Shown here: positions 7,907 through 41,000 of the stretch, one piece after another | Layout: every line of letters starts with the position of its first letter | How positions within the stretch are numbered: the first letter of the stretch is position 1 | Assembly: GCA_963971405.1 (NCBI GenBank) | Contig: OZ020485.1 | Span: forward strand, 7,068,001-7,132,000 | DNA from: Psococerastis gibbosa | Taxonomy: Eukaryota > Arthropoda > Insecta > Psocodea > Psocidae | Reading direction: 5' to 3' | Length of the DNA stretch: 64,000 nt | Position numbers and translations under genes: made by a program | Notes under the pieces: model-generated | Database searches by the model: none | The model's input: only the letters and a program-made list of their open reading frames with translations | What the model was told of the DNA's origin: nothing

Positions 7907-9684
7907 CTGTTTGCAAAAATAACAAAACTACGAACTATATTTCCATTTTTCTAATGTCTTATAACTCCTTCTAGGCCTTATTGAAACTTTGATCAATATA
8001 ACACACTTTAAGGGTAAAATAAGTTCAAATACACTAGTAATTAGGATCAAAGTTAAAATGTTTACAATAGATTGTTGACGGCCATCATTGACATTTTAAA
8101 AGAAGACCAACTTAACAAAACAAAAATAAAATTCCCCTACCAAATATTTAAATTTTATAGCGGGAATGTATGAACTTTTTTTATGGAATAAGCTCATATT
8201 TTTATTAGAATTCATTCTTTGGCTTTATTGACCTGAGTAAGTAGTAGTAATATAGTGTAATGGCTTTTAACTTCGATAGGATACATTTAAAAAAATGCAA
8301 CTTGGTCACATACCTTATTTTAGTATACCAACCATTAATTATTTGATTAATATGTTAATAAATAAAAATAAACAAAAAATAACAAAAACTTAGAGTTTTA
8401 GAAAAACTTGTTATAACAACCCGAATTAGTAAAACCCAAATAATCGTTAAGAAATTAACTTTGTCTAAGAAACCCACTTGTGTTAGTATAAAACCCTGAG
8501 CGCTTTCGGCAAGAATTGCCATCTACAGAGGGAAACCCACTAGCACAGTTACACCTTATCTGCGATTTGAGACTTGCTCAACTCGAGGAGAAGATTGCAT
8601 CCTCGAGGAGAAGATTGCATCCTCGAGTTGAGCAAGTCTCAAATCGCAGATAAGGTGTAACTGTGCTAGTGGGTTTCCCTCTGTAGATGGCAATTCTTGC
8701 CGAAAGCGCTCAGGGTTTTATACTAACACAAGTGGGTTTCTTAGACAAAGTTAATTTCTTAACGATTATTTGGGTTTTACTAATTCGGGTTGTTATAACA
8801 AGTTTTTCTAAAACTTTAAGTTTTTGTTATTTTTTGTTTATTAAAATGAAATACCACGAAGTCACGAGTAATCTAATTATTTATAATAAATAAAAGTCTA
8901 ATGCCCTATATGGTATGACATTCTATGACCCTATTTACTCAACATTATAATGCAACATCTGACATTGTGAAGAGAATGGATCTGACTCATCCCCGAATTC
9001 CATAGAAAAAGGTCCAACGATGGTTTTATTATTCACGGTTGGGCATTGCCAGGCGATCCTCGAATTCCTTCTAGACATATTGTTCGGCCAAAATTCCCCT
9101 GAGGGGTCACCCAATAAAAGTACGTATGCAGACTATACCATCCGAAATCCTAGTAATATATTGTAATTTTTTTATGTTCACATCAACTTAGCGGTAGTCT
9201 CAATACCGTAACACAGACTATAGTTACAGTAATATTGTATCAATTCGGTGTCATTAACGGCTACCTACCCCTAACTGTAGCACAGAGGCTTCATTAAGCA
9301 GTAAAAACGAGACAAAATTATATAACTGTAACAAATTTTAATAGCCCGATCGTTCGCGTTTTAGTAAGTAGTAAGAAATTATAACTATTTTGTTCCCTTG
9401 CGCGAGACGGTTACTTAATTTTGTTAGTCATCGTTTTGATATAAGTAGTTAGATTAGATTTCTTTAGACAGTCATCCAACCTATTGCGACAATACGAGTT
9501 GTTTTGTGACACTCAGTTTTGTGTATCATATCCCCTGCAATTCACACACAGGGGGTTGACAGGTGATTTGAAAATTCCGGTATATTATATCTTTGAAACG
9601 ATCCATGTGATATATTATTGAAAGTCCGACTTGCAGAGTCCAATTCCAAACTTAAAATCCCCTTCGTTCTCCAGAAGGCAGTAT
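7907..9684. other. Intergenic region between RME-8 and the xanthine dehydrogenase gene
   Basis: This contains the RME-8 promoter and 5' leader and the 3' region of the xanthine dehydrogenase gene. The only clear structure is the long hairpin at 8367-8842. A short leader exon for RME-8 must lie at or upstream of this gap but cannot be placed by eye. Confidence 0.6.
8367..8842. repeat. Near-perfect 476-bp inverted repeat (foldback element)
   Basis: The left arm (8367 to about 8590) reads AATAAACAAAAAATAACAAA onward and is repeated almost base for base in reverse from 8842 back to about 8620. The centre holds two copies of CTCGAGGAGAAGATTGCATC in direct repeat before the arm reverses. Arms are about 220 bp with very few mismatches, so the element is young or under homogenisation. 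No coding frame survives inside. I could not identify a certain target duplication. Confidence 0.85.
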
Positions 9685-27600: not shown

Positions 27601-30600
27601 TTACGCTGCCCATTGCATAAATCTCGAGCATATACATACATATGGACCTACGGAGTGGATAGCTGGTCATTGTGGAGGGACGAAGAGCAACTGCTGCATG
27701 TGGCTGAGATGCGAATGTTGCGTCTGGGTTACAAATTGACAGACAGGAGGAGAAACGAGGACGTCAGGGCGAAGATGCAAGTAGCAACTATTACCGACAC
27801 ACGATAAGAAGAGAAGATGTCCACCTGCTACAACGTGTGAGAGATTACACAGTGGAGGGCACAAGACTTATAGGACGACCGAGGATGTCCCTTGAAACGA
27901 AAATGAGGGAAGACCTCAGGACCCTCGCCGGAAAATACCCAAGACCGGAACACCTGGAAGATGGAAGTGGGAGGGATAAGGCGCCGTTAAGGCGCGGTTT
28001 CCACCGACCGGCTAGGGCTAAATACAAATACGGTAACGTGGTAACAGACATTCAAGACTTAGGCGGGGTTTCCACCGACCTCGCATTGCAGAATGCAAAT
28101 GTCATTGACGGAAATGTTTGTTTTTATTTTTATAGAAATCTATTAAAATGTTTGTAATTAACATATCCCATGACGACATTTTTTAATTTTAGTTAGTTTG
28201 TTTGTGATTTTACTGTATTATCATTGATCAATTTTAACTATGACATAGAGTAAAACAAACATTTCCGTCAATGCCACTTACATTCTGCAATGCGAGGTCG
28301 GTGGAAACCCCACCTAAGTCTTTAATGTCTGCTACCACGTCACCGTATTTGTATTTAGCCCTAGCCGGTGGAAACCCCGCCTAAGTCTTTAATGTCTGCT
28401 ACCACGTCACCGTATTTGTATTTAGCCCTAGCCGGTCGGTGGAAACCCCGCCTAATATTTAAACTCAATTTCATAATAATAATAAAAGGATACATAATTT
28501 TTGAAGTGGCGCGGTTAAATCGCGATACCATAACAGTGCAAGCTCCACAACCACCTTCTGCGCATCCCAATTTTGTTCCACATAGCCGCACTGAAACAAG
28601 TTCCAAAGCTGTCATGAACAAAATTTGCTCCAAAAATTCACAATGTTCAATAACATTGTTGCGAGACCAAATCTCTAGCAAAAACACTACTACTTAAAGT
28701 GCTCTAAAGATATGAATTTAATTTTTCAATGTTTTTTGTTAGGATAGACATAGGCTACAGATACTTTAGTTCCTGGGACCTCAAGACGTGTCAATCCATC
28801 GGAAACTCGGAATCGATGATTTCGACCATCACAAAGCTTTCCTTATACTGACTAAATAGGAAAGCAATGCGTATACTGTATGCTACCAGAGTTTATTAGG
28901 TCTAGCCTATCCGTCTATCGAATTCTTAATGAAAATTTAACCCACATTTGTTACGAAGGTAGTACAGCAATGTCCAGGCTGGGTCCACTTCTTTGTCAAT
29001 AATCTGAAGAAAAAAATCACGTTAAAACTTGCGAATTGCGATAGAGAAGAACTTAGTATAAAAAGTGATAATCTAATCAGTAAGCTAAATTCTTTATAAA
29101 GCAATCAATAAATAATTTAGAGTACCGGTACTGCATAAGGGGGGTATTCCATATACGTACAACGTCAATGAAAATTATGAAATTGATGGTGGCAGCAGAC
29201 ATTTTTACATACTAAAAATTCTGCTGCCACCATCAATTTCATAATTTTCATTGACGTTGTACGTATGTGGAATGGGGGCCTTAGAGTAAAGTGCAAATAT
29301 TTGTTTATTTTGTTTTCATATTGCACAGAATTGAAAAATCAAGTCCCAGTGAAGCTGTCCAAGTAGGCACAGGACCCATAGGTATCCGCATATGGGAGTT
29401 ATACTATAACCGACTATATAGGTACGGTACTAATACGAGTAAGTTACCGTCCAATAGTCAATAGACTAGAGAGTAATAAGCAACAACAATTCAACAAATA
29501 ACACCTACAGTAGGATAATACGCAACGGTCATCAGTTTTCCAAATTTTCCAAGACGTACCTACATCAGTACCTAGCCTACTTGAGGGTTTATCGGACTTC
29601 ATTTCAACGGAGCCTAAGGGTCAATTCGTAATTTCGTATAGTAATGAATGAAATTCATCGCGTAGGGTTTGACTCATTGGCCAAGGCTATAGGGCTGTAA
29701 TGAAAATGAGTGAAGTCTTGGTCTTCTGCTGTATGGGGAACCACCGCAGTATAAAAAGGCAGCTACTATAATGCCAGCATAACATGAAATGCTATCATTT
29801 AGGCGAATCTGAAGGTCATATTATAATGTCATTAAGACTTGGATGTAAACAAACATACGACCGATAAAAATGTAGGACTGCTAGCCTTTCGTAGCTAAAG
29901 CTTTTGACCGCCACAAGGATTATAATGATAACATATTAAACTGTACCTAATTAATCAGTGCCGTGCCGTGGATTTTTCAAGCATGAAGCAAGGTTCGAAA
30001 ATGGCGCCCTCTTGTATGCATATATTATATATACGTATATAGTGTATAGGCCCTATATATAATATATGTATAGCACCATAGGTACATAATATATTTCCCA
30101 AATAAAAACAAAACCATCTTCATCGAGAAAAATTTATTATTTATTACGCATTGAAGTTATAAAAAAGAATTTTCCTAGTTCTTCATGAAACTCCTCATAA
30201 AATGGAAAGTAATTACTGGCATAATGGTACATTTTAACAATATTAGGCTACTTCAATTTTACTTTCCTTACTTTCAATTTGGCAAATTCGTCAATCAAAT
30301 CAGTATAGTCGAGAGTGGCGGCCAAGCCAGACTCAATCGATATTACAGCTAAGTTGGACAGTTTCAGTTGACTAATAGAATTTCTTAAATAATTTTTAAT
30401 TATTTTCAGTTTTGAAAAGCTCCTCTCCCCACTCGCAACAGATACGGGCAGGGTGAGGAGTATTCGTAAGGCCACAATTAGGTTGGCGTACAACGGTTCC
30501 AACTCGTTTTCCACTAAATAATTGAGAGTGTCTAAAGGCTTCATGGATTTAGGCAATAAACGGGCCACATCACGCAACTCATCTTGTAAATCAATTCCAT

Positions 30601-33600
30601 TTATATCAGATTCATTGTCAGCTGTTAAAATATTTCCAAGTTCTTTACAAAAAGTTTCAAGAGTTTCGTCATCAATATCTCTAATTTTATAGATATCATA
30701 TAAAAATTGGAAATTCTTACTATGATTTTGTAGAAGTTGGAATCGCTCACACAATGAAGTAATGGTTTTGTCTAAAATATAATAAAAAAAATTTACAGCA
30801 AATTTTTTTTCTTCATTTAAAGGTTCATCTTCTGCTTTTTCATCAAATTGTCGCTTTTTTTTTCTGGCCCTTACCTCCATTTCTTTAGGGAATTCCTTAT
30901 TGCATTCCATTTCGTCTGCGATTTCGTTGGCTGTAATTTTTATATGCTCCAGCCCTGCTTCTCTAAATGCTTGAATCCTGTTAATTGTCTCTGATAAAAG
31001 TGTTACGCAGTCCGAAAGATTTATTGTAATTGATTGAAGTAACTTGGAAACCACATTCACTTCAAATAAAATATTATACCACAGAACTAACCCACAGATA
31101 AATTTGTAATTATTAATGCTTCTAGCCAACCCTCTAGCTCTTACTTTAGCCTCTTCGTCAGTCCTTTCATCTTCCATGATATCTATCAATGTGTCATACA
31201 CATCGCCTAGTTGATACCTCAGTGGTTTCAATGCATCGATTCTACTAGACCATCTAGTAGCACTCAAGGGTTTGATAGTCAACTGAGTGACATGTTTTTT
31301 TAAGGCCTCCCAACGCTTTGTAGAAGCGGATAAAAAGTTATATAGTTCTTGTACGGTAGAAAAGAATGATGTGGTTTCCAAGGTACATGAAGCCGCATCA
31401 TTTACAACAAGGTTTAAAGTATGATTTGCACATGGCACATAAAAAGCTCGAGGATAATTTTTAAGGATGCGACTTTGTACACCTTTTCTCACTCCTTTCA
31501 TGTTGGCGCCATTGTCGTATCCCTGACCTCTTAACCACTTCAACGTGAATCCCAATTTCTTTAAATGCGCCAGAATAAGCTCAGCCAAAGCTTCACCAGT
31601 CGAATTGGTAGCCTCAAAAAACCCAACGAAAAATTCATGAATTTCATACTTTTTAATTTTTTTGTTGAGGGTAACAATTCTTACTGTTAAGGACAGTTGC
31701 TCAGTATGGCTTACATCAGGCGTACAATCTGCTATCACTGAAAAATACTTAGCTGTATTTGTTAATTCCAAAATTTTTTCTAAAACAGTTTGCCCCATTA
31801 ATTGAATCAATTCATCTTGTATACGGTTGCTTAAATAAGTAACAGACGGTTTGTCTGATGCCCTTTGAACTCTTCTAATGTGTTCCTCCATAACAGGATC
31901 AAACTCTGCAAGAAATTCTATAAATTTAAGAAAGTTTCCGTTATTTTCGGCAAACAAATGTTCATTTGATCCTCGCAGAGCTAAACATTGCGTTGCCAAC
32001 GCCCTAATTAAAGAAATTATTCTTTTAATGACTCCTCTCCAGTGCTGAATCTCCATTTCAGTAAGTCGTTGGTACTCATCGTCTATGGTTCTTTTCATCC
32101 GCAATCTTGAGTTAAATTCTTTCCATTTTCGAAAGGCATCCCTGTGGTATTTCGATTTTTCATGAGACTTGAGGGTTCTGCCAATATTCTGCCAATCGGA
32201 AAAGCCTGCTTTTGGCCATTGAGAGACGTCTGACTGATCAAAAAGTTTGCAACAGAAACAAAACACGGAGTCGTTTGAAACAGAATAAATGAGCCAATTT
32301 CTTTGTACAACTTCGCCATTTTGCAAAACCATCTCATAATTTGATGCTACAAATCTACGTTTTGAGCTGTTGGCTGGAAATTGGAATTGTCGTACTTGTT
32401 GCGGGCCCCTTTCTACCAATATTTGACGAATTGCCGAAGTAATTGAAAATCCCCATAAGGCTGGGTCAGAACTTAATTCAGAGACTTCGTTAGAACTGGA
32501 TGGTCCCGATGGTGTATCATCATTTATCGGCTCGGATGCGTGACAATTCAATATCACAGGCGATTCTTCGGTTGAATTATTGTTGCTGGTGAAGGCCTTC
32601 ATAGCTTTACTCAACTTTATATTTTCTTCTTCTCTCTTCTGTCGTTTTAGCTTGTTCTGATATCCGGACAATTTTCCACGTTTTTCTGACATGCTTGCAC
32701 TGAAATAAATTATTTTCTGAATTACACAAATTTTCTGGAGGAAGTGACTTTGGTATTTTTATTGATTTTTATGACTAACATCTCTTAAAATTTAATCAAA
32801 ATCGTTAGAGCCGTTTTTTAGGAAAAAAAATTGAAAACCTGATTTTTGGGGGCAGTGAAATTTGCAATCCTTCTGTTTTGTGCTCGTGTCCCTTAATATA
32901 TGTGTGAAGTTTGATCAAAATCCATCCATTAGTTTAGGCTTTAGCTCTACGTGCATAGTGCATGCACACCCACACATACAGTACAGATACTAGCCAATGG
33001 AAACCGGCAACCATGGCAATGAATGCCTAAATACTTACAGTAAATAAATTAGCTATTGTAGTGTACAAGGCAAACGCGCTACCCTTCCTTCACTGAAATA
33101 TGCAATAGCATAGCTACATACATAAATAAATACATATACTATATGTAGCCTACTGCTCAAATTTACTTACCATAAGTTATACTTTATACAGTATGTAGCT
33201 AGGTAAGGTAATTGTTCACAAAAGCTACCCACGGCGTCTGTATAGAGGATTTGTACTTTGTATTTAAGTCAGCCCAACGGGGTCGGAAAGCACTCACCAG
33301 TCACTGGGGCATTGGGAAGGGCAGAGTATTAGGGGAGGAAGCTAAATTTAAATTTAACACAAAGATATTTTTCGCAAGAAAATAAAAAAACACCAATTTG
33401 GGCCTTTAAAAATTAACCAAGCGCCATTTGTAAACAAACATGATACCACGCGACACGCGTAAACAAGAAACACTTACCTATCGAGTATCGACTGAAAAGC
33501 CGCCAAAAAGTTTGAAATAGTTTGTTTAGTTCTGAGTTTTACAATTATTTTAAATTTTATTCTTTTTTATATTGCATTCATGTCAATATTTAAAATTTTT

Positions 33601-34011
33601 GTTTTCAATAAAAAGAAAATCTAGAAGGTATATTTAGGATACATTTTTGTCCAATTTGGCGCCCCCCGCAGCGTGGCGCCTGAAGCGGCTGCCTCATTGC
33701 CTCAATGGACGGCACGGCCCTGTAATTAATCATGGGCAAATAATAATGCACGCTGTTCGCATCAAGGTTATCAGAGTCGTCAACCTCGAGTAACTATAAA
33801 TCATTGTCAATTGCTGCACAATTTTTCCTTTACAAAGTAGGCTATTATAAGTTAGGTGGTGTTTAATTTAAAGTACCGTAGCTCTACCTTACCGTTACCA
33901 TATATATATGCTAAATAATCAATAGGCCTATATTGAATATCTCTGAATTACCTTTTTGCCATTGACAAAAAATACAAGAGTAGAGGTGGGTTCCGAACTA
34001 AAATCACCCAT
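9685..34011 (-). CDS. Xdh: Xanthine dehydrogenase, complete gene, 26 coding exons, 1,350 residues
   Basis: Oxidises hypoxanthine and xanthine to uric acid in the cytosol; the insect rosy enzyme, also needed for pteridine pigments. Exons: 34011-33952, 29003-28946, 28590-28494, 26192-25957, 25267-25011, 24874-24733, 24635-24468, 24228-24152, 23649-23446, 22665-22481, 21737-21482, 21030-20955, 20547-20327, 19802-19680, 19479-19258, 17883-17750, 16670-16496, 16166-15975, 15778-15633, 14908-14731, 14188-14060, 13871-13744, 12358-12244, 11109-10855, 10583-10416, 9735-9685. Every junction is GT..AG and phases match, totalling 4,053 nt with stop. The start exon reads [18 protein letters not shown], the family N-terminus; the last 17 codons end KPWNIVP-stop, as in fly. 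Compared with the bovine enzyme, numbering is shifted by +6 in the iron-sulfur part and +21 in the molybdenum part, and all active-site residues are kept. Aldehyde oxidase is excluded by the Glu in GGFGGKE and the Arg in DRAIFHF. Introns hold many repeats, including an intact hAT element in intron 1. Confidence 0.96.
10706..10765. repeat. Short repeat, probable LINE 3' tail (copy 1 of 2)
   Basis: Contains ATGGCCCTTCGGGGCTAAAG followed by CTCGCCTAATATAAAGAC. A close match is at about 46388-46440 (CCATTCGGGGCTGAAGCTCG and the same CCTAATATAAAGAC). The hairpin-like GGCCCTTCGGGGC core followed by an A/T-rich end resembles LINE 3' tails. Confidence 0.45.
11147..11287. repeat. Foldback MITE, GGCGG family (copy A)
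   Basis: About 140 bp, almost entirely palindromic. Starts GGTGGCAATTCCACCGACC and ends in the reverse complement GGTCGGTGGAGTCCGCGC. The inner arms include GATATTGACGTGGTAGCAGA. It lies in xanthine dehydrogenase intron 23, 38 bp upstream of the exon at 11109-10855. The same family is at 27991, 29139, 49007, 53089, 55552 and 63767. Confidence 0.85.
11360..11690 (+). mobile_element. LINE fragment, 3' end of a reverse transcriptase ORF
   Basis: Broken plus-strand frames contain [20 protein letters not shown], then a basic GRPRKR-like stretch and a tail resembling [15 protein letters not shown]. That is the usual C-terminus of a LINE family common in insects. It has several stops. A related copy is at 56260-56470. 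Confidence 0.65.
12564..13600. mobile_element. Non-autonomous DNA transposon with long inverted arms and 8-bp target duplication
   Basis: Ends are ACGAGTCGGTCAGCGTAAC and its reverse complement, flanked by a perfect 8-bp repeat ATAAACAA at 12556-12563 and 13601-13608. The arms are about 170 bp and include a second conspicuous pair, TAGGGCTGCCACATTCCG at 12651 and its complement ending at 13506. The 8-bp target suggests a hAT-type or P-type transposase acting in trans. The interior has no long open frame. It sits in xanthine dehydrogenase intron 22. Confidence 0.82.
16378..16437 (+). repeat. SINE fragment (3' part)
   Basis: Matches the body and tail of the tRNA-derived SINE: ATAGCCCTAACTCCGCTAGG, TTGGCTTAGTAAC, then AAAAAGTCGATATTTATTTA. 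The tRNA head is missing, so it is a truncated copy. Confidence 0.7.
16720..17028 (+). other. Unassigned open frame in a xanthine dehydrogenase intron
   Basis: The plus strand is open for 103-111 codons up to the stop at 17026-17028 and starts [20 protein letters not shown]. The composition looks protein-like (low in Leu/Ile/Phe/Lys runs, with Pro, Trp and His), unlike nearby AT-rich shadow frames. I do not recognise it. It may be a transposon remnant or chance. Confidence 0.25.
17381..17480. repeat. (ATGAA)n microsatellite plus LINE-like tail
   Basis: Four to five ATGAA units lead into AACGACTTTATTGCAAACAA and AGTCTTGTTTTCATGCTAACC. The last part recurs inverted at about 58483-58510 (GGTTAGCATGAAAACAAGAC). 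A short tandem repeat next to a conserved tail is typical of LINE 3' ends. Confidence 0.5.
17532..17558. repeat. (TA)n microsatellite
   Basis: About 13 uninterrupted TA units in a xanthine dehydrogenase intron. Confidence 0.9.
17917..18190. repeat. MITE with GGCCCGGT...ACCGGGC-type termini
   Basis: Left end AAGGCCCGGTACCCACGGAC; right end AATTGTCCGTGCATATCGGG, which is its imperfect reverse complement. A left-end relative (AAGGCCCGGTGCACACGGAC) is at about 50437 upstream of CFAP44. No coding capacity. Confidence 0.6.
18331..18680 (+). mobile_element. Penelope-like terminal sequence next to a coding-like remnant
   Basis: At 18610-18650 the bases GTCGAAACCGGTCGTGTTTT and the following TTTATGTAATATTGAC match the terminal repeat of the Penelope-like element at 39463-40873. 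Just upstream, 18331-18540 is open for about 70 codons and reads [15 protein letters not shown], then [15 protein letters not shown] do not recognise that helical-looking stretch, but its position suggests it belongs to the same element. Confidence 0.5.
18716..19010 (+). repeat. Dispersed repeat family (copy 2 of 3)
   Basis: Same family as 6195-6531: shares CAAACTTGGTAGTGTGCGCA, GCGTTGGCAGGGGAACATGG and CTAGGGTGCCTCAAGTAAAT. It has internal deletions relative to copy 1. Confidence 0.75.
20675..20785. repeat. Short inverted repeat (hairpin)
   Basis: GGCGGTGCCCATTGTCAGGG with GGGCGACGTTTCGGGAG is mirrored by CTCCCGAAACGTCGCCCCC and CCCTGACAATGGGCTCC. Arms are about 45 bp around a short loop. 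It sits in xanthine dehydrogenase intron 12 and may be a divergent GGCGG-type foldback. Confidence 0.75.
21203..21240. repeat. (CATTC)n pentanucleotide repeat
   Basis: Imperfect CCATT units (CCATTCCATATTCCATTCC...) in intron 11 of the xanthine dehydrogenase gene. Confidence 0.8.
21255..21385 (+). repeat. Dispersed repeat family with ATCGCATACAA head (copy 1 of 3)
   Basis: Contains CGCATACAAATAATTCAATG, then TAACCTCTTCAGTCGCCTC and GTTGAGTTGCGACAGGTAAG. Longer copies are at 42905-43095 and 49855-50045. The shared order of blocks shows one family; I cannot assign it to a class, though length and conservation would fit a SINE. Confidence 0.65.
22211..22441 (+). mobile_element. tRNA-derived SINE, full-length copy
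   Basis: Head GGACATGTAGCGTAGTGG carries box A; GGTTCGAGTCCC is a perfect box B. The CTTTCAC loop between them looks most like tRNA-Glu. The body reads CATTTTCTGGCCATGCTTCT, GGCTTTATAGCCCTAACTCC and AGGTTGGCTTAGTAATAG and ends in a TTTA-rich tail. Best preserved of the copies in this window. It lies in xanthine dehydrogenase intron 10, antisense to the gene. Confidence 0.88.
24305..24420 (-). pseudogene. Xdh: Decayed tandem duplicate of the 3' half of xanthine dehydrogenase exon 7
   Basis: The block repeats 24438-24552 (the end of exon 7 plus its donor and the first bases of the intron) about 134 bp further on. It shares TTTGCTATTTGTG.CTTCAA, CATTCAGTGTAACAGC and the flanking GGAACTTCAACATA. 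It carries a one-base insertion that breaks the frame in the TLNEMGDY part, and the donor CCTGGTATGT has become CATGTTATGT, so it cannot splice as an exon. Confidence 0.8.
26587..26597. repeat. Poly(G) tract
   Basis: Eleven consecutive G in xanthine dehydrogenase intron 3. Longer G or C runs occur in the channel gene region to the right. Confidence 0.9.
27226..27441. repeat. Dispersed repeat (copy 1 of 2)
   Basis: Shares GTAACATCGAGAATGCG, TTTTACGGAAACAATA, GGTCGTTGGCA and AGTCCTTAAAAAATTA with 50937-51160 at roughly 70-75 percent by eye. Class not recognised. Confidence 0.5.
27600..27985 (+). mobile_element. LINE fragment, C-terminal reverse transcriptase region
   Basis: Plus-strand frames read [20 protein letters not shown] then [20 protein letters not shown]. 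After a frameshift near 27800 they continue with [16 protein letters not shown]. This is the conserved YG.E.W.L...E..L..AEMR.LR pattern and GRPR...W..D tail of RTE/BovB-like and related insect LINEs. Directly followed by the foldback at 27991. Confidence 0.72.
27991..28452. repeat. Foldback MITE, GGCGG family (copy B, long form with an internal duplication)
   Basis: Starts GGCGCGGTTTCCACCGACC and ends GGTCGGTGGAAACCCCGCC, flanked by TAA on both sides (27988-27990 and 28453-28455). Each arm contains a second, inner GGCGGGGTTTCCACCGACC end and the block AATGCAAATGTCATTGACGG. The right arm has a 60-70 bp direct duplication (CTAAGTCTTTAATGTCTGC...). This looks like one copy nested in, or grown from, another. 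The same arm recurs at 63767-64000. Confidence 0.85.
28765..28868. repeat. Dispersed repeat (copy 1 of 3)
   Basis: TTCCTGGGACCTCAAGACGTG followed later by GAATCGATGATTTCGACC and AGCTTTCCTTATACTGACTA. Relatives are at 44597-44700 and 51541-51665. Class not recognised. Confidence 0.55.
29139..29280. repeat. Foldback MITE, GGCGG-like family (copy C)
   Basis: A 142-bp hairpin: GTATTCCATATACGTACAAC to GACGTTGTACGTATGTGG, with the inner GGTGGCAGCAGACATTTTTA mirrored by TTCTGCTGCCACC. Flanked by TAA and TTA. It lies in xanthine dehydrogenase intron 1, about 130 bp upstream of exon 2 in reading order. Confidence 0.82.
29956..33722 (-). mobile_element. Intact hAT-superfamily DNA transposon (3,767 bp)
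   Basis: Left end CAGTGCCGTGCCGTGGATT and right end (reverse complement) CAGGGCCGTGCCGTCCATT are matching hAT-type CAG.G termini. The element is flanked by a perfect 8-bp target duplication TAATTAAT at 29948-29955 and 33723-33730, the diagnostic hAT length. It carries one uninterrupted transposase gene on the minus strand and two AATAAA signals after its stop (minus strand, at 30140-30145 and 30133-30138). The perfect duplication and open frame indicate a recent insertion. It is in intron 1 of the xanthine dehydrogenase gene, same orientation as the host gene. Confidence 0.95.
30248..32692 (-). CDS. hAT transposase, ZMYM1/DUF4371 type, 814 residues, apparently intact
   Basis: Cut-and-paste transposase of the enclosing element, expected to act in the nucleus on its CAG-ended termini. 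Order of parts: basic N-terminus ([10 protein letters not shown], residues 14-23); TTF-type zinc finger around 130-185 (C145, C147, C148, then H176 and H183); DUF4371 region about 175-400; RNase H-like core with first Asp at 322 ([10 protein letters not shown]), second Asp at 393 ([12 protein letters not shown]), the [10 protein letters not shown] block at 421-430 and the LSATRWSSR motif at 476-484; insertion domain; and the C-terminal hAT dimerisation region with the catalytic Glu at 756 ([12 protein letters not shown]). A single exon with no stops or frameshifts. Similar proteins are often annotated as zinc finger MYM-type protein 1-like in insects. A domesticated role is possible but less likely, given the intact termini and target duplication. 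Confidence 0.93.
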   Translation of the reverse strand: MSEKRGKLSGYQNKLKRQKREEENIKLSKAMKAFTSNNNSTEESPVILNCHASEPINDDTPSGPSSSNEVSELSSDPALWGFSITSAIRQILVERGPQQVRQFQFPANSSKRRFVASNYEMVLQNGEVVQRNWLIYSVSNDSVFCFCCKLFDQSDVSQWPKAGFSDWQNIGRTLKSHEKSKYHRDAFRKWKEFNSRLRMKRTIDDEYQRLTEMEIQHWRGVIKRIISLIRALATQCLALRGSNEHLFAENNGNFLKFIEFLAEFDPVMEEHIRRVQRASDKPSVTYLSNRIQDELIQLMGQTVLEKILELTNTAKYFSVIADCTPDVSHTEQLSLTVRIVTLNKKIKKYEIHEFFVGFFEATNSTGEALAELILAHLKKLGFTLKWLRGQGYDNGANMKGVRKGVQSRILKNYPRAFYVPCANHTLNLVVNDAASCTLETTSFFSTVQELYNFLSASTKRWEALKKHVTQLTIKPLSATRWSSRIDALKPLRYQLGDVYDTLIDIMEDERTDEEAKVRARGLARSINNYKFICGLVLWYNILFEVNVVSKLLQSITINLSDCVTLLSETINRIQAFREAGLEHIKITANEIADEMECNKEFPKEMEVRARKKKRQFDEKAEDEPLNEEKKFAVNFFYYILDKTITSLCERFQLLQNHSKNFQFLYDIYKIRDIDDETLETFCKELGNILTADNESDINGIDLQDELRDVARLLPKSMKPLDTLNYLVENELEPLYANLIVALRILLTLPVSVASGERSFSKLKIIKNYLRNSISQLKLSNLAVISIESGLAATLDYTDLIDEFAKLKVRKVKLK

Positions 34012-35084: not shown

Positions 35085-38000
35085 TTAGAGCTCATCATTA
35101 CAGCCTGACAATCTCCCAGTTACTTCTCCCTCTTCTTTTAAAATGTCGCCGATTGGGAGTTCGTCTGCTTCAAAATCAGGGGCCATTTCCAATATCAATT
35201 TGGCTTTAGAAAGAAGATTGTCAAGATTGGGGGCAGCAGCAGCAGCACATTCCATGTCTTTCTCAGAATTGTTTTCATCGTCCAATTCTTCAAACATAGC
35301 CTTAAATGCTTTCATTGGCATTTTTTCAACATATTCGTCAATCAAGCTCTTCAACCTAAAAATACGTTACAACATTATCACATTAATAACTTATGATACA
35401 ATTAGGCTAAGGAAACGCAGAGGCAAACATTTCAACAACTTTAGCGACCATAGCGAATAAATGAGGATATCGTACACACAAAGAATTTAGATCTGAGTAG
35501 TCTGAGTGCTTTATTGACGGTTCTTCATTGAGTCCTACAATCAATCCAATATCTCCGGCGTAAACATCAGTGCTCGATAGAGTATAGAGTATAAAGTATG
35601 TAAATCGTGATAATCTATAAAGCTTATACTGTTTATACGATTCCCAGCAGAACTGCAAGTGGGCTGTTTTAGATGTCACCACCTTTTATTTCCTTATCTA
35701 TAAGAATCCATTACCGAAAAGCAATTGGTAATATAAAGTACAATATTTTAAATAGCCTAGGTAACTTTTAGTCCACTCTATTCCCTACCAGCATTACGGT
35801 CCTTGTCCGCTTCCAACAACCTCATCCAGTAGTACCTGTGGCGAGCCGGTTTATTTATGCTGAACTTACCTAGAGGCACCCTCTTGAGTCACAAAGCCAC
35901 CTTCAATATCACACGAGAGTTCATCAATATCCTCAAGCAAAGTTTTCAACTCAAGTTTTAGCATTTCCGAAACTTCAAAAATCATCCCATCAACTGTTCT
36001 TATTGACGTCATGATAAGTCTCGTCTCAGAAGATATTTCTTCAACTGCCATTTTCTCAGCTTCTCTACGAATTGTATGTTTAAATTTAATTGCATGTATC
36101 TCTTCATATAACCAAGCCAGCTTACGTTTTTGCTTGCATACGACCTTTTCCAGTTTTTCTATATCTTTCAAATTCTCTTCTTTTGGTGGTAACTCTATTT
36201 TGATATTCTGTGCTTCCAAAACCCTGTCAATTCGGGACTTCTCTTCATTTAAAAGAGCAATAATATTAAACCGTTCAGTGTTTTGTTTTAGTCGGTTTGC
36301 GTAAGTTTCCTTCCTTCTGTTTAATCTATCCTGGAGCGGACCTAGACCTTTTATCAGTTCCTTTTCAAATTCAAATGAAATAAAACCCATTTCAGCGACC
36401 AATTTCTTCAATAAACTTTCCTCTAATTCATTTAAATCTACTATGGAACCAAATTTTCGCATCATCGTCTCTTTAGTATCTTTTTCTTTGTCTTTAATAA
36501 CCTGAGCCATGTATCGGATATCAATAGCCATTCTTTGAATGTGTTGTCGATTTTGAGCATGTCTGTCTTTCTGCTGCATAGTCTCTTTTTCCAGAGCGCT
36601 GCCCCTGTTGTGCAATTTAGCCAACAGATCGGCACTTAGTACGACGGAGTCTACGATCCCTTCCAAAGTCTCATCATCACGAAGATTTTGAAACTGATCT
36701 AATACCAAAACTACTAATGTCTCAATTTCATTTAGTTTCACCTGCTTCTCCCTTTGAAACTCTTCTAAGTCCTTTTGCGCAATTATGTTTGACTTATCTA
36801 AAACAAGCATTTGCTTGCTGGACACATCAACATACTTTTTTAAAGTCTCAACCTCTTTCTTCTTTTCGACAACGTTGCTTTCTAGTACATGCCTTTGAGC
36901 TCGGCTTGTAAAGGTAAGCTCATAGAGAGCTCTATCGCAACCAGCCGGGCAAACATTCTCATCCATGTCAAAAATGTTGACATCTTTAGAATCCAGACTT
37001 TTGTCATCACCTTCATCTGACTCTGTGTCGTCGTCACTCGAGCTACTATCATCACTATCTGCATCTTCAGGCTTTGGCGCTTTGAACCTTTTCTTAAAAA
37101 TTTTCTTTAGGAAATCAAAATATTTATTATCGGCAATGCTGCTAAAATATTTCGACACTAAAATTCTTATTTCATCTTCACTATTTTGTATTTCTTTCAG
37201 TCGTAAATCAATCCTCAGCAATGTCTCATTAATTGATTTCTGTAAATCGTCTTTTTCCTTCAGCGACGACAAAACACTTTTGGATTTCTTTCCTTCTTCG
37301 CCTTCAAAGTCTTTTAAAATGTGTACCTCTCTACTTATCGTTAGTATATATATTTCCAAAAATTTTGCGTCAGCATCAACTCTGATTTTCTCATCCCTTA
37401 GCAAATAAACATCTCGGTCAAAATCCGTTATATCTTGTGTCATTTCAGTAACAATTTCCCCTTGTTTCATTAAATTGATTTGATGAGACTCATAGTTTTC
37501 TAATTCTAATTCCCAAGCTGAATCATAATTCCCACTTTTGCTTAATTCTTGCAACTGTGAAATTTCCATTTTGTATGGATCTCCTTGAAATTTCTTTTTG
37601 ATGTCAACCATGGGCAATGTTGCCAACGTTTTTCTCCTTCTTCTGTCAGAAGATTTTCGTTGTGGTTTTGCGTTTAAATACAATTCATTAAGCACATCTT
37701 CCTCTATGAATGTTAATTTCCTTTCAGGAAACTCTATATCGACATCGATTTGAGGTAAATCGGGAGGTGCCACAGTAAGATGTTCAGGAATGCCCTTATA
37801 AATAACATTTAAATCTTCTCGCAACATCGTGTGTTTTTTCAATATTTCCTGTTTTCGGCGTCGCAAGTCTAGTACTTTACAGTTGAATGAATGCTTTAAA
37901 TTGTACATTCTTTGTTTTGCCTCCAGTAGAGATAATGTTTTACTTAAAGTTGAAACTTTCAAGTGCTTAGGAACTTTATATTCTGAAACAATGTTTATTG

Positions 38001-41000
38001 TTACATAGTTAAACATTGGATGAAAACGTGACAATATATTGGGCCTCCAACTTGCAAAACAATTAAATTCCTTTAATACGCACCTGGCGACGTTTTCAAA
38101 ATAAGATCCCCAAGATTTTCTCTAGCCATTTCAAGTGCCAGTACGTCAGACGGATCCATCTGATCAAGATTTGGTTTTCTGGTCATGAAGTCCTTCCAAA
38201 CTTGAGAGCGAGATTTTTCCTCAGCCCGCCGTTTACAATATTTGTCATAGAGTCGACATAACTGAAAATTCCGCCCAATGTCACCCAACGTGGATACATG
38301 CTTTAGTAACGCGTCGATGAGATTTAAATCTTCCACGACTTTTTCTGTGGTTGGTCCAATCGAAATCGCCACACTTTGTTCTCTGCAATTTAACCAAAGC
38401 GCGGCCTTTAAACGTGTGAAATATACGGTATTACATCTGCGATAGTAAAAAAGAAGAAAATTCCTTTATTTTCCACTTGGGCGAATTTTGGGCCTTTTGG
38501 CTCACTCTTACAATCAACCCATACTAAATAAATAAATATTGTACAATACGCTGTTACAAATTTAGCTGAAATAAAAATTAAGGCCATTTATGCACCTTTC
38601 ACTCACCATACGTACGCATAAAGTAGGCTAGTCGTGACACGCACCCTTAATAAATTTCTATTAACTTTTTGGGTTTTATCTGATTGGGTCCTCCACGACT
38701 ACGATTTACACAATTAAAACTTAAAACGAAAGCAATCCATTCCGACTGTTTAGCTGCGGCAGTACTAATTATTAGGTCTCACACCCACAGGTATTTGCGA
38801 TGCAGTTGCGTCAGTGACTTTGTTTTCTCTTCCCGACCAGTAAGCCCATTGCCTCGTAGTACTAGCCTACTGACATTTGCTAAGTATTGCTCAAGAAATT
38901 GGCAAATGTGTAGGATTATGCAGCTCCACATTGCAAGCCGTTCGGTCACCTTCGACTGAGACTTCTATCACCTGAGTCAGCTGAGTGGGCCAATAAAAGC
39001 CAGCCTTTTGTGGGCGCAGCTTTACGAACCGCGTGCTCAAATTATAGGGGCGTAGATTTCCGCATGCATATGCTGTAAATGGACATCTTTCGTAGAGAAA
39101 TCCAAAATGCCGCTGGCTATGTATATAGTCATAGATAGATCACAATCCTATTTTTTGATAGGTTGGACGTGATTTCTTATACGAAAGAAGCCCATTCGTT
39201 TTTCTCAGTTCATAACTGTGCAATCGCATGCAACAAATAATTTGACAAACCTCAGTGAGAGACGAATCTGCTCCTCAAGCTTCACTGTTGCATGTAACAA
39301 GATATTAATTAAGTCATAGCCCATTGGAGAAATGTTCCTGTACATTTTGATGCATGATGATATGTGGCCATTACTAACTCAGAACGGTCACAGTTTTGGA
39401 TCCCCTTAGACCAGACTCCTGCACTGTCCGTTTCTATTTCACATAACTAATGTGACCATTATATAAAATCGTCTCCTTTGTAACTTTGTAATATTTTGAA
39501 CACATTGTAATGAGAGTTAACTTTGTAAAATATCACATAAAAACATATAAAGCATAAAAATATCGTCACGACCGGTTTCGACAGATTGTCATTCTCAAGT
39601 GAGCAGATAAAACTTATTGCAAGTTACGAGTATAAACATTAAGTCACGTTATAAATATAAATACATTACATATACGATCCTGCTGCCATGTCCAACAAAG
39701 GAGAATTGCTGATAAACGTTATATCATTTAATAGGGGTTTATTCCTATTAACAGCTTGTTTCATTTCAATGGTTTCCAGATTATCCAGCAATTTTCCTTT
39801 GTTGGCTATGTGTAATATTTTAAAATTCTTAAGGGTACACGAATGTCCTGTGTTGTTCATGTGTTGGGCTAGCATTGATTGCGTATCTATTTTACCTATT
39901 CCTTTAAAATGCTCATACAGTCTCTTCTTAAAATGTGTTATTCCTGTTTGCCCAACATAAGAACAATCACAATCGTCACATAATAGTTGGTATACTCCTG
40001 ATTTCCTATCTCTCTCCATTTTTGACTTGCAATTGATCAATTTTCTCCCCATTGACCCTATAGTATAGTAAGCTACAGATTTTTTCACCTTCTCATTTAC
40101 AAACACTCCCAAATAGTTACTAATTTTTCCTATGTACGGAATTTTTACAAATTTTTAATCCTGTATTGGGTCAGGTGTGCACACTAGAGATAGATCTATT
40201 CTTATTTTATGTTTGTTTAAAATATTGTTCACAATATCCGCTGGGTACCCATTATTAGTAGCTATTTGAAGGATCGTATTATACTTCGTTTTAAACGCCG
40301 TGCCATCCATAGGGATATTTAAAAGTCTGTGAATCATCGCATGAATGGCCGCGTATTTATGATGTAAGGGGTGAAGGGAATCAGCAGGAATTATACAATC
40401 TGTTGGGGTAGGTTTCTGTAAACATTGAATGCTAGTCCATTTTTTGCTCTAGTTATTTTAAGTTCCAAGAAATTTAATGAATTATTGTTTTCTATTTCCC
40501 TTGTAAATTTAATCTTTGGATGTAAATTGTTGAAAACATGGAGTACATTGTCCAATTGCCGATCACTACCTTTAAAAATTAAAAATATATCGTTCACGTA
40601 TCTAAAATATGTTATAATGTAATCAATTAAATTATTTTTGGATTTAAAAAATATTTGCTCCAGATTATCCATAAATATTTCCGCGAGTATTGGGGAGAGA
40701 GAGGAGCCCATGGCCAAACCTTCTTTTTGAATGAAAAAATCATTAGAGAATTGGAAGTAGTTTTGAGTCAAAATTAAATTTAAAAGAGAATGACAATCTG
40801 TCGAAACCGGTCGTGACAATATTTTTATGTTTTTATGTGATATTTTACAATGTTAACTTTCATTACAATAATATAATGTGACCATTATTAATTTACCTCA
40901 AACCGGGTCACTACGAACGTTCATCCCATCATTTTACTTTTTCATATGCAGACCGCACTAACCTTGGTTTAACAAATTTTGTATTTATGTTTTAAGAATT

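Follow-up and report, generated by a model that had tools for sequence, protein, structure and literature searches.

Intron 1 of a xanthine dehydrogenase (XDH) gene of Psococerastis gibbosa holds what looks like an intact hAT transposon, which raises the question of whether this is a gene domesticated by its host or an element that has moved recently and, in the latter case, where it came from. We analyzed the 64,000-nucleotide stretch around it (hereafter the window) and searched for further copies in the 409-Mb genome assembly (68 contigs), which includes the window. We are highly confident that the element is a complete, autonomous-looking hAT transposon of the Tip kind, and that the assembly captures it in the course of a burst or shortly afterwards. 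By kind it is otherwise an ordinary hAT transposon; what is unusual is its state, an early stage with dozens of copies hardly touched by mutation.

The element and its host intron

29956..33722, minus strand (strand of the transposase): complete hAT element, 3,767 bp, one of 63 two-ended copies in the genome
29948..29955: left 8-bp target site duplication (TSD), TAATTAAT, a perfect match to the right copy
33723..33730: right 8-bp TSD, TAATTAAT, a perfect match to the left copy
29956..29969, plus strand: left terminal inverted repeat, CAGTGCCGTGCCGT (19-bp arm, 84%)
33709..33722, minus strand: right terminal inverted repeat, CAGGGCCGTGCCGT
30248..32692, minus strand: transposase frame, 814 aa, with DUF4371, Dimer_Tnp_hAT and candidate residues D322, D393 and E756
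32700..33477, minus strand: possible 5'-UTR intron, donor GTAAGT at 33477, acceptor TTTCAG ending at 32700
30133..30145, minus (transcribed) strand: two adjacent AATAAA signals past the transposase stop, at 30133 and 30140
33952..34011, minus strand: XDH exon 1 (coding part), from splice-site reading and peptide match
28946..29003, minus strand: XDH exon 2, from splice-site reading and peptide match
from 28590, minus strand: XDH exon 3, from splice-site reading

The original prediction had placed an element with inverted termini and a perfect TAATTAAT duplication at 29956..33722, and these coordinates prove correct to the base. The two termini, CAGTGCCGTGCCGT and CAGGGCCGTGCCGT, match at 13 of 14 bases and at 84% over 19 bp. 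Within the window they have two exact matches only, which are the two ends of the element; three further matches carry three mismatches each, about the level of chance. The stop-free 814-residue frame with D322, D393 and E756 was likewise found as described, at 30248-32692 on the minus strand. On the transcribed strand the element contains five AATAAA signals, and two of them, at 30133 and 30140, lie beyond the transposase stop; such signals could, as had been proposed, truncate the host transcript. At the other end of the frame a candidate acceptor (TTTCAG, 32700) directly precedes the transposase ATG, and splice-like motifs suggest a possible 5'-UTR intron at 32700-33477, which is one choice among the four donor-like and seven acceptor-like motifs listed.

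The host gene was recognized from a 66-aa peptide joined from exons 1-3, whose matches, 36 distinct PDB sequences, are xanthine dehydrogenases (the best, at E 1.5e-23) and enzymes related to them. Of the 4,948 bp of intron 1 the element occupies 76%, and it is oriented like the gene, as had been claimed.

Copies, insertions and age

The original prediction proposed a search for further copies with the same ends. The left-end 27-mer of the element has 63 exact matches in the genome, compared with 0 for a reversed control, and the right-end 30-mer occurs exactly at 82 places, 63 of which pair by position with the 63 left ends. This count of 63 copies rests on exact ends, and copies without them fall outside it. 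Every copy (63/63) is flanked by a perfect 8-bp TSD, and all 63 TSDs are mutually distinct. A single genomic copy under purifying selection had been named as the sign of a domesticated host gene, a reading that the long intact frame could support. The genome holds 63 two-ended copies with TSDs at their mobile ends, and 55 identical intact genes were scored (the best 55 of 786 candidates); domestication is therefore rejected on copy number and is vanishingly improbable.

Forty-seven copies were read whole, of which 42 are full length with 0 differences and five are different deletion copies. The first set of 43 (the window and L009-L050) comprised the 42 identical copies of 3,767 bp and one deletion copy, L049. 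The other 20 copies were read at their ends, and the right end lay within the fetched stretch for 16: 14 are exactly 3,767 bp long, L051 is 41 bp shorter and L065 is 1 bp longer. The remaining four (L052, L054, L055 and L063) were read whole as L113, L110, L111 and L112, respectively, with lengths of 3,687, 2,137, 2,111 and 3,237 bp. Over all 63 copies the spacing of the ends is thus full in 56 and of a different length in seven, with 14 of the full-spacing copies known from their end sequences only.

The choice of copies is biased in favour of identical ones. All 63 were located through an exact end, and 37 of the 42 without differences come from the best 38 of 96 candidates in a DNA search with the element, all 38 scored at 100% identity and the window heading the list, whereas four come from contigs C19 and C65 and one is the window itself. 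Among the five copies chosen by place only (C19 and C65), four are identical and one is a deletion copy. On the protein level, all of the best 55 of 786 candidates are identical over 814 aa and stop-free; their coordinates place L051 and L065 among them, as well as 13 of the 14 end-read full-spacing copies (L053 is missing). These 55 leave out the C20 and C65 copies, both of which were read whole; adding the two brings the total of identical intact transposase genes in the genome to at least 57.

The copies go back to separate insertion events. When the flanks of 43 copies were compared (megablast, E 1e-10), 21 similar flank pairs were found, and L017/L035 is the only pair of loci with more than one flank match, in an arrangement that is not collinear 5'-5' plus 3'-3'. 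Segmental duplication as the source of the copies was rejected, given that the flanks are unrelated except for shared repeats and no collinear duplication is seen among them. Among the sequences compared, five insertions (L017, L029, L032, L040 and L046) have empty sites with a single TSD, at 1, 2, 3, 5 and 6 mismatches in 48 bases, respectively. These counterparts are element-free copies of the interrupted repeat, paralogous and not allelic. Matches with 11-12 mismatches, found for L014, L017, L018, L024, L030 and L046, were excluded from the count, and those of L014 and L024 are the insertion edges themselves.

The insertion step follows directly from the 63 perfect TSDs and the five paralogous empty sites. 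From what is known of the family, the transposase would excise the element at the inverted ends and insert it elsewhere through a cut staggered by 8 bp, and copy number would probably rise through transposition combined with repair from the sister copy. Interrupted repair may also account for the five deletion copies, which have intact ends, their own TSDs and five different sets of breakpoints. L049 is a 2,566-bp deletion copy with one substitution close to the deletion junction and a frame of 297 codons. Counted from the ATG, the transposase frame has 145 codons in L110 (2 bp of microhomology at the breakpoint), 262 in L111 (a 3-base filler) and 620 in L112 (1 bp of microhomology). L113 has a 79-bp and a 1-bp deletion and one substitution inside the coding frame, in which this single base differs from the other copies. 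The suggestion that the element is a source of non-autonomous relatives thus holds for four of the five deletion copies, whose frames are shortened, but not for L113, which keeps all 814 codons.

Most copies read are identical letter for letter, which indicates a very recent spread. The 42 full-length copies give 158,214 bases (42 x 3,767) without a substitution and hence a mean copy age below about 1.9e-5 substitutions per site (95% upper bound), if a star phylogeny of the copies is assumed and the assembly is taken as correct. If the mutation rate is taken as 2.8e-9 to 1e-8 per generation, values that are not measurements for the host species, this corresponds to approximately 6,800 to 1,900 generations. 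Adding the five deletion copies gives two substitutions in about 172 kb, an upper bound of about 3.7e-5 per site and roughly twice the times.

Polishing with multi-mapping short reads could erase small differences, so that older, differing copies would have been made identical by the consensus. We consider such an assembly artefact very unlikely, because the assembly does retain differences, namely the 41 bp missing from L051, the extra base of L065, the five deletion copies and the single substitutions in L049 and L113, and because each copy has its own TSD and the flanks of 43 copies have nothing but repeats in common. The description "intact, probably recently mobile" can therefore be put more strongly than it originally was: there are 63 insertions with perfect TSDs, and all 42 full-length copies read whole are identical. 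The element may still be moving.

Copies so barely marked by mutation offer a chance to watch the invasion of a genome, from its onset through fixation and host silencing to the appearance of deletion copies. With its intact ends and transposase, the element is also a candidate laboratory transposon. Recent spread in an animal has a known parallel in hobo, which is an Ac-type hAT. The hobo element is likewise a hAT that spread recently in Drosophila melanogaster (PMC8042734, PMC4807377), whereas the element studied here is known from one assembly.

Family placement and origin

Pfam identifies DUF4371 (PF14291) at residues 162-401 of the transposase (E 6e-18) and Dimer_Tnp_hAT (PF05699) at residues 716-788 (E 1.3e-10, 41.3 bits against a cut-off of 21.4). 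Below threshold are DUF659 (0.014) and zf-C17orf113 (PF25431; residues 132-191, E 1.8e-5, 24.9 bits against a cut-off of 29.5); an N-terminal zinc finger is usual in Tip-group hAT transposases. Residues D322, D393 and E756, together with C421xxH and RW480, lie in hAT-like positions by motif, and were placed by a pattern of DDE triad, CxxH and RW that we take to be that of hAT transposases. With regard to the RNase H-like fold of hAT transposases, an AlphaFold2 model from the single sequence reached a mean pLDDT of 38.8, and a sequence comparison of the transposase with PDB chains gave no match at E up to 1.

Two features of the hAT superfamily, an 8-bp TSD and a C-terminal dimerisation domain, are present in 63/63 copies and in the transposase (PF05699), respectively. 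The 19-bp arms at 84% and the length of 3,767 bp also lie within the ranges given for hAT elements, terminal inverted repeats of 10-25 bp and lengths of 2.5-5 kb (PMC3942097). The combination of DUF4371 with hATC is that of BuT2, a member of the Tip group (PMC3942097), and by domain content we classify the element as a Tip-like (DUF4371-type) hAT transposon. BuT2 and its group (Tip100, AeTip100-2 and hAT-12_HM) share with it the 8-bp TSD, short inverted ends (12 bp in BuT2), DUF4371 with the hAT dimerisation domain, and non-autonomous copies that arise by deletion (PMC3942097). In contrast, the BuT2 transposase has 643 aa encoded in five exons, compared with 814 aa in a single coding frame here (PMC3942097). 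Also unlike BuT2, the element has 63 copies, almost all of them full length; the likeness is drawn from description and domains. A literature search recognized no published description of this element, a result that carries little weight.

As for the origin of the burst, we give roughly even chances to horizontal transfer, in which the element would have come from another species no more than a few thousand generations ago and would be invading a naive genome. The 42 full-length copies without divergence and the identity of all 55 scored proteins favour it and resemble known fresh invasions. Horizontal transfer has been proposed for BuT2 (PMC3942097), and hAT-6_XT was transferred horizontally into turtles, fishes and a frog (PMC11008031). 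In these new hosts hAT-6_XT, likewise a hAT, shows little divergence and has kept its residues intact (PMC11008031); that work compared species, whereas the element here is known from one genome. A search of viral_contigs for a near-identical element returned 67 stretches that fit a pattern, none of them confirmed.

However, older sequences related to the element are already present in the genome: their ends are almost the same, and a fragment of transposase shows about 72% identity. The 19 right ends without a partner (L091-L109) match the element exactly over the last 33-35 bp only and were therefore rejected as further copies of the family. In fifteen of them the flank that follows is identical, AAGTTCCA. 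These fifteen belong to a different repeat, inside which lies a degenerate relative of the transposase C-terminus, with about 72% identity over 180 bp. L095 is an old non-autonomous element of 620 bp with ends CAGGGCCGTGCCGTGG and a TSD that matches, by eye, at 7 of 8 positions; the last 35 bp of its right end are identical to those of the element, and identity is 95% over 44 bp. These orphan right ends and L095 indicate that a related lineage lived in the genome earlier, which weakens the case for horizontal transfer.

They also lend some weight to a resident origin, in which one copy of an old hAT lineage was reactivated or escaped without horizontal transfer, and which we hold to be a serious possibility just short of an even chance. 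In its favour are the closely similar ends and decayed TSD of the non-autonomous L095, and the 15 other right-end places that bear a degenerate relative of the transposase C-terminus. Against it, the DNA of the related transposase piece has diverged by about 27%, and no intermediate occurs among the best 38 of 96 DNA or the best 55 of 786 protein matches. This last point counts for little, given that such lists hold best matches only and the absence of intermediates from them is no evidence of absence.

As a separate observation, eight of the 15 copies of the AAGTTCCA-flanked repeat are identical over the 670 bp read, and this second repeat is apparently young.

Target sites and genomic distribution

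With so little decay in the copies, the 63 sites show without blurring how a Tip-like element chooses its targets. The target preference that they reveal is weak. Folded about their midpoints, the sites are enriched in A at the third base outside the TSD (58/126, family-wise P 0.010) and in T at position 3 of the TSD (56/126, P 0.034); C at position 1 is borderline (39/126, P 0.054). The motif nnTnnAnn, chosen after looking at the sites, occurs in 15 of the 63 TSDs compared with 35 of 378 overlapping flank windows (P 0.002) or 14 of 126 non-overlapping ones (P 0.03). The motif of the Ac group is nTnnnnAn and that of the Buster group nnnTAnnn. Neither is in excess at the 63 sites relative to the 378 flank windows (5 compared with 30, P 1.0, and 3 compared with 35, P 0.33, respectively).

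For hobo, nTnnnnAn is given from earlier work, and palindromic target motifs extend up to 3 bp beyond the TSD, with that of hobo among the longest (PMC3276498). The authors of the Tip-group study state that they did not investigate the target preference of Tip elements (PMC3942097). Tentatively, a fuller reading can be put forward, in which a Tip-type hAT is invading now after horizontal transfer, with mostly polymorphic insertions and a palindromic target preference of its own; this reading we consider possible, though rather less than probable. The preference would consist of T at TSD position 3, A at position 6, A three bases before the TSD and T three bases after it, unlike that of Ac or Buster.

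The evidence for local hopping is weak as well. Five distances were tried, with 62 of the 63 copies (the C65 copy was left out) and contig C13 taken as 46.4 Mb (actually 47.05 Mb). Compared with a uniform expectation, neighbouring pairs number 2 within 100 kb (1.0 expected, P 0.25), 4 within 150 kb (1.4, P 0.053), 9 within 600 kb (5.5, P 0.09) and 11 within 1 Mb (8.9, P 0.25). Within 300 kb there are 8 pairs with 2.8 expected (P 0.005, or 0.010 with per-contig counts kept). Contig C14 holds 16 copies compared with 7.4 expected (chi-square over nine contigs, P 0.033).

Some repeats of the window have relatives that took up the element elsewhere. XDH intron 1 contains a palindrome at 29146-29273 (60-nt arms, 95% complementary, 8 nt between), another copy of which is the target of the L032 insertion; hence the palindrome is a dispersed fold-back or MITE-like repeat. 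Adjoining XDH exon 3, two tandem 67-nt units (28299-28432) are 99% alike, and a related repeat copy bears the insertion L029. The window further contains a 722-codon open frame upstream of XDH (35866-38034, minus strand) and a perfect inverted repeat at 8367-8842, with 223-nt arms that are 100% complementary and 30 nt between them.
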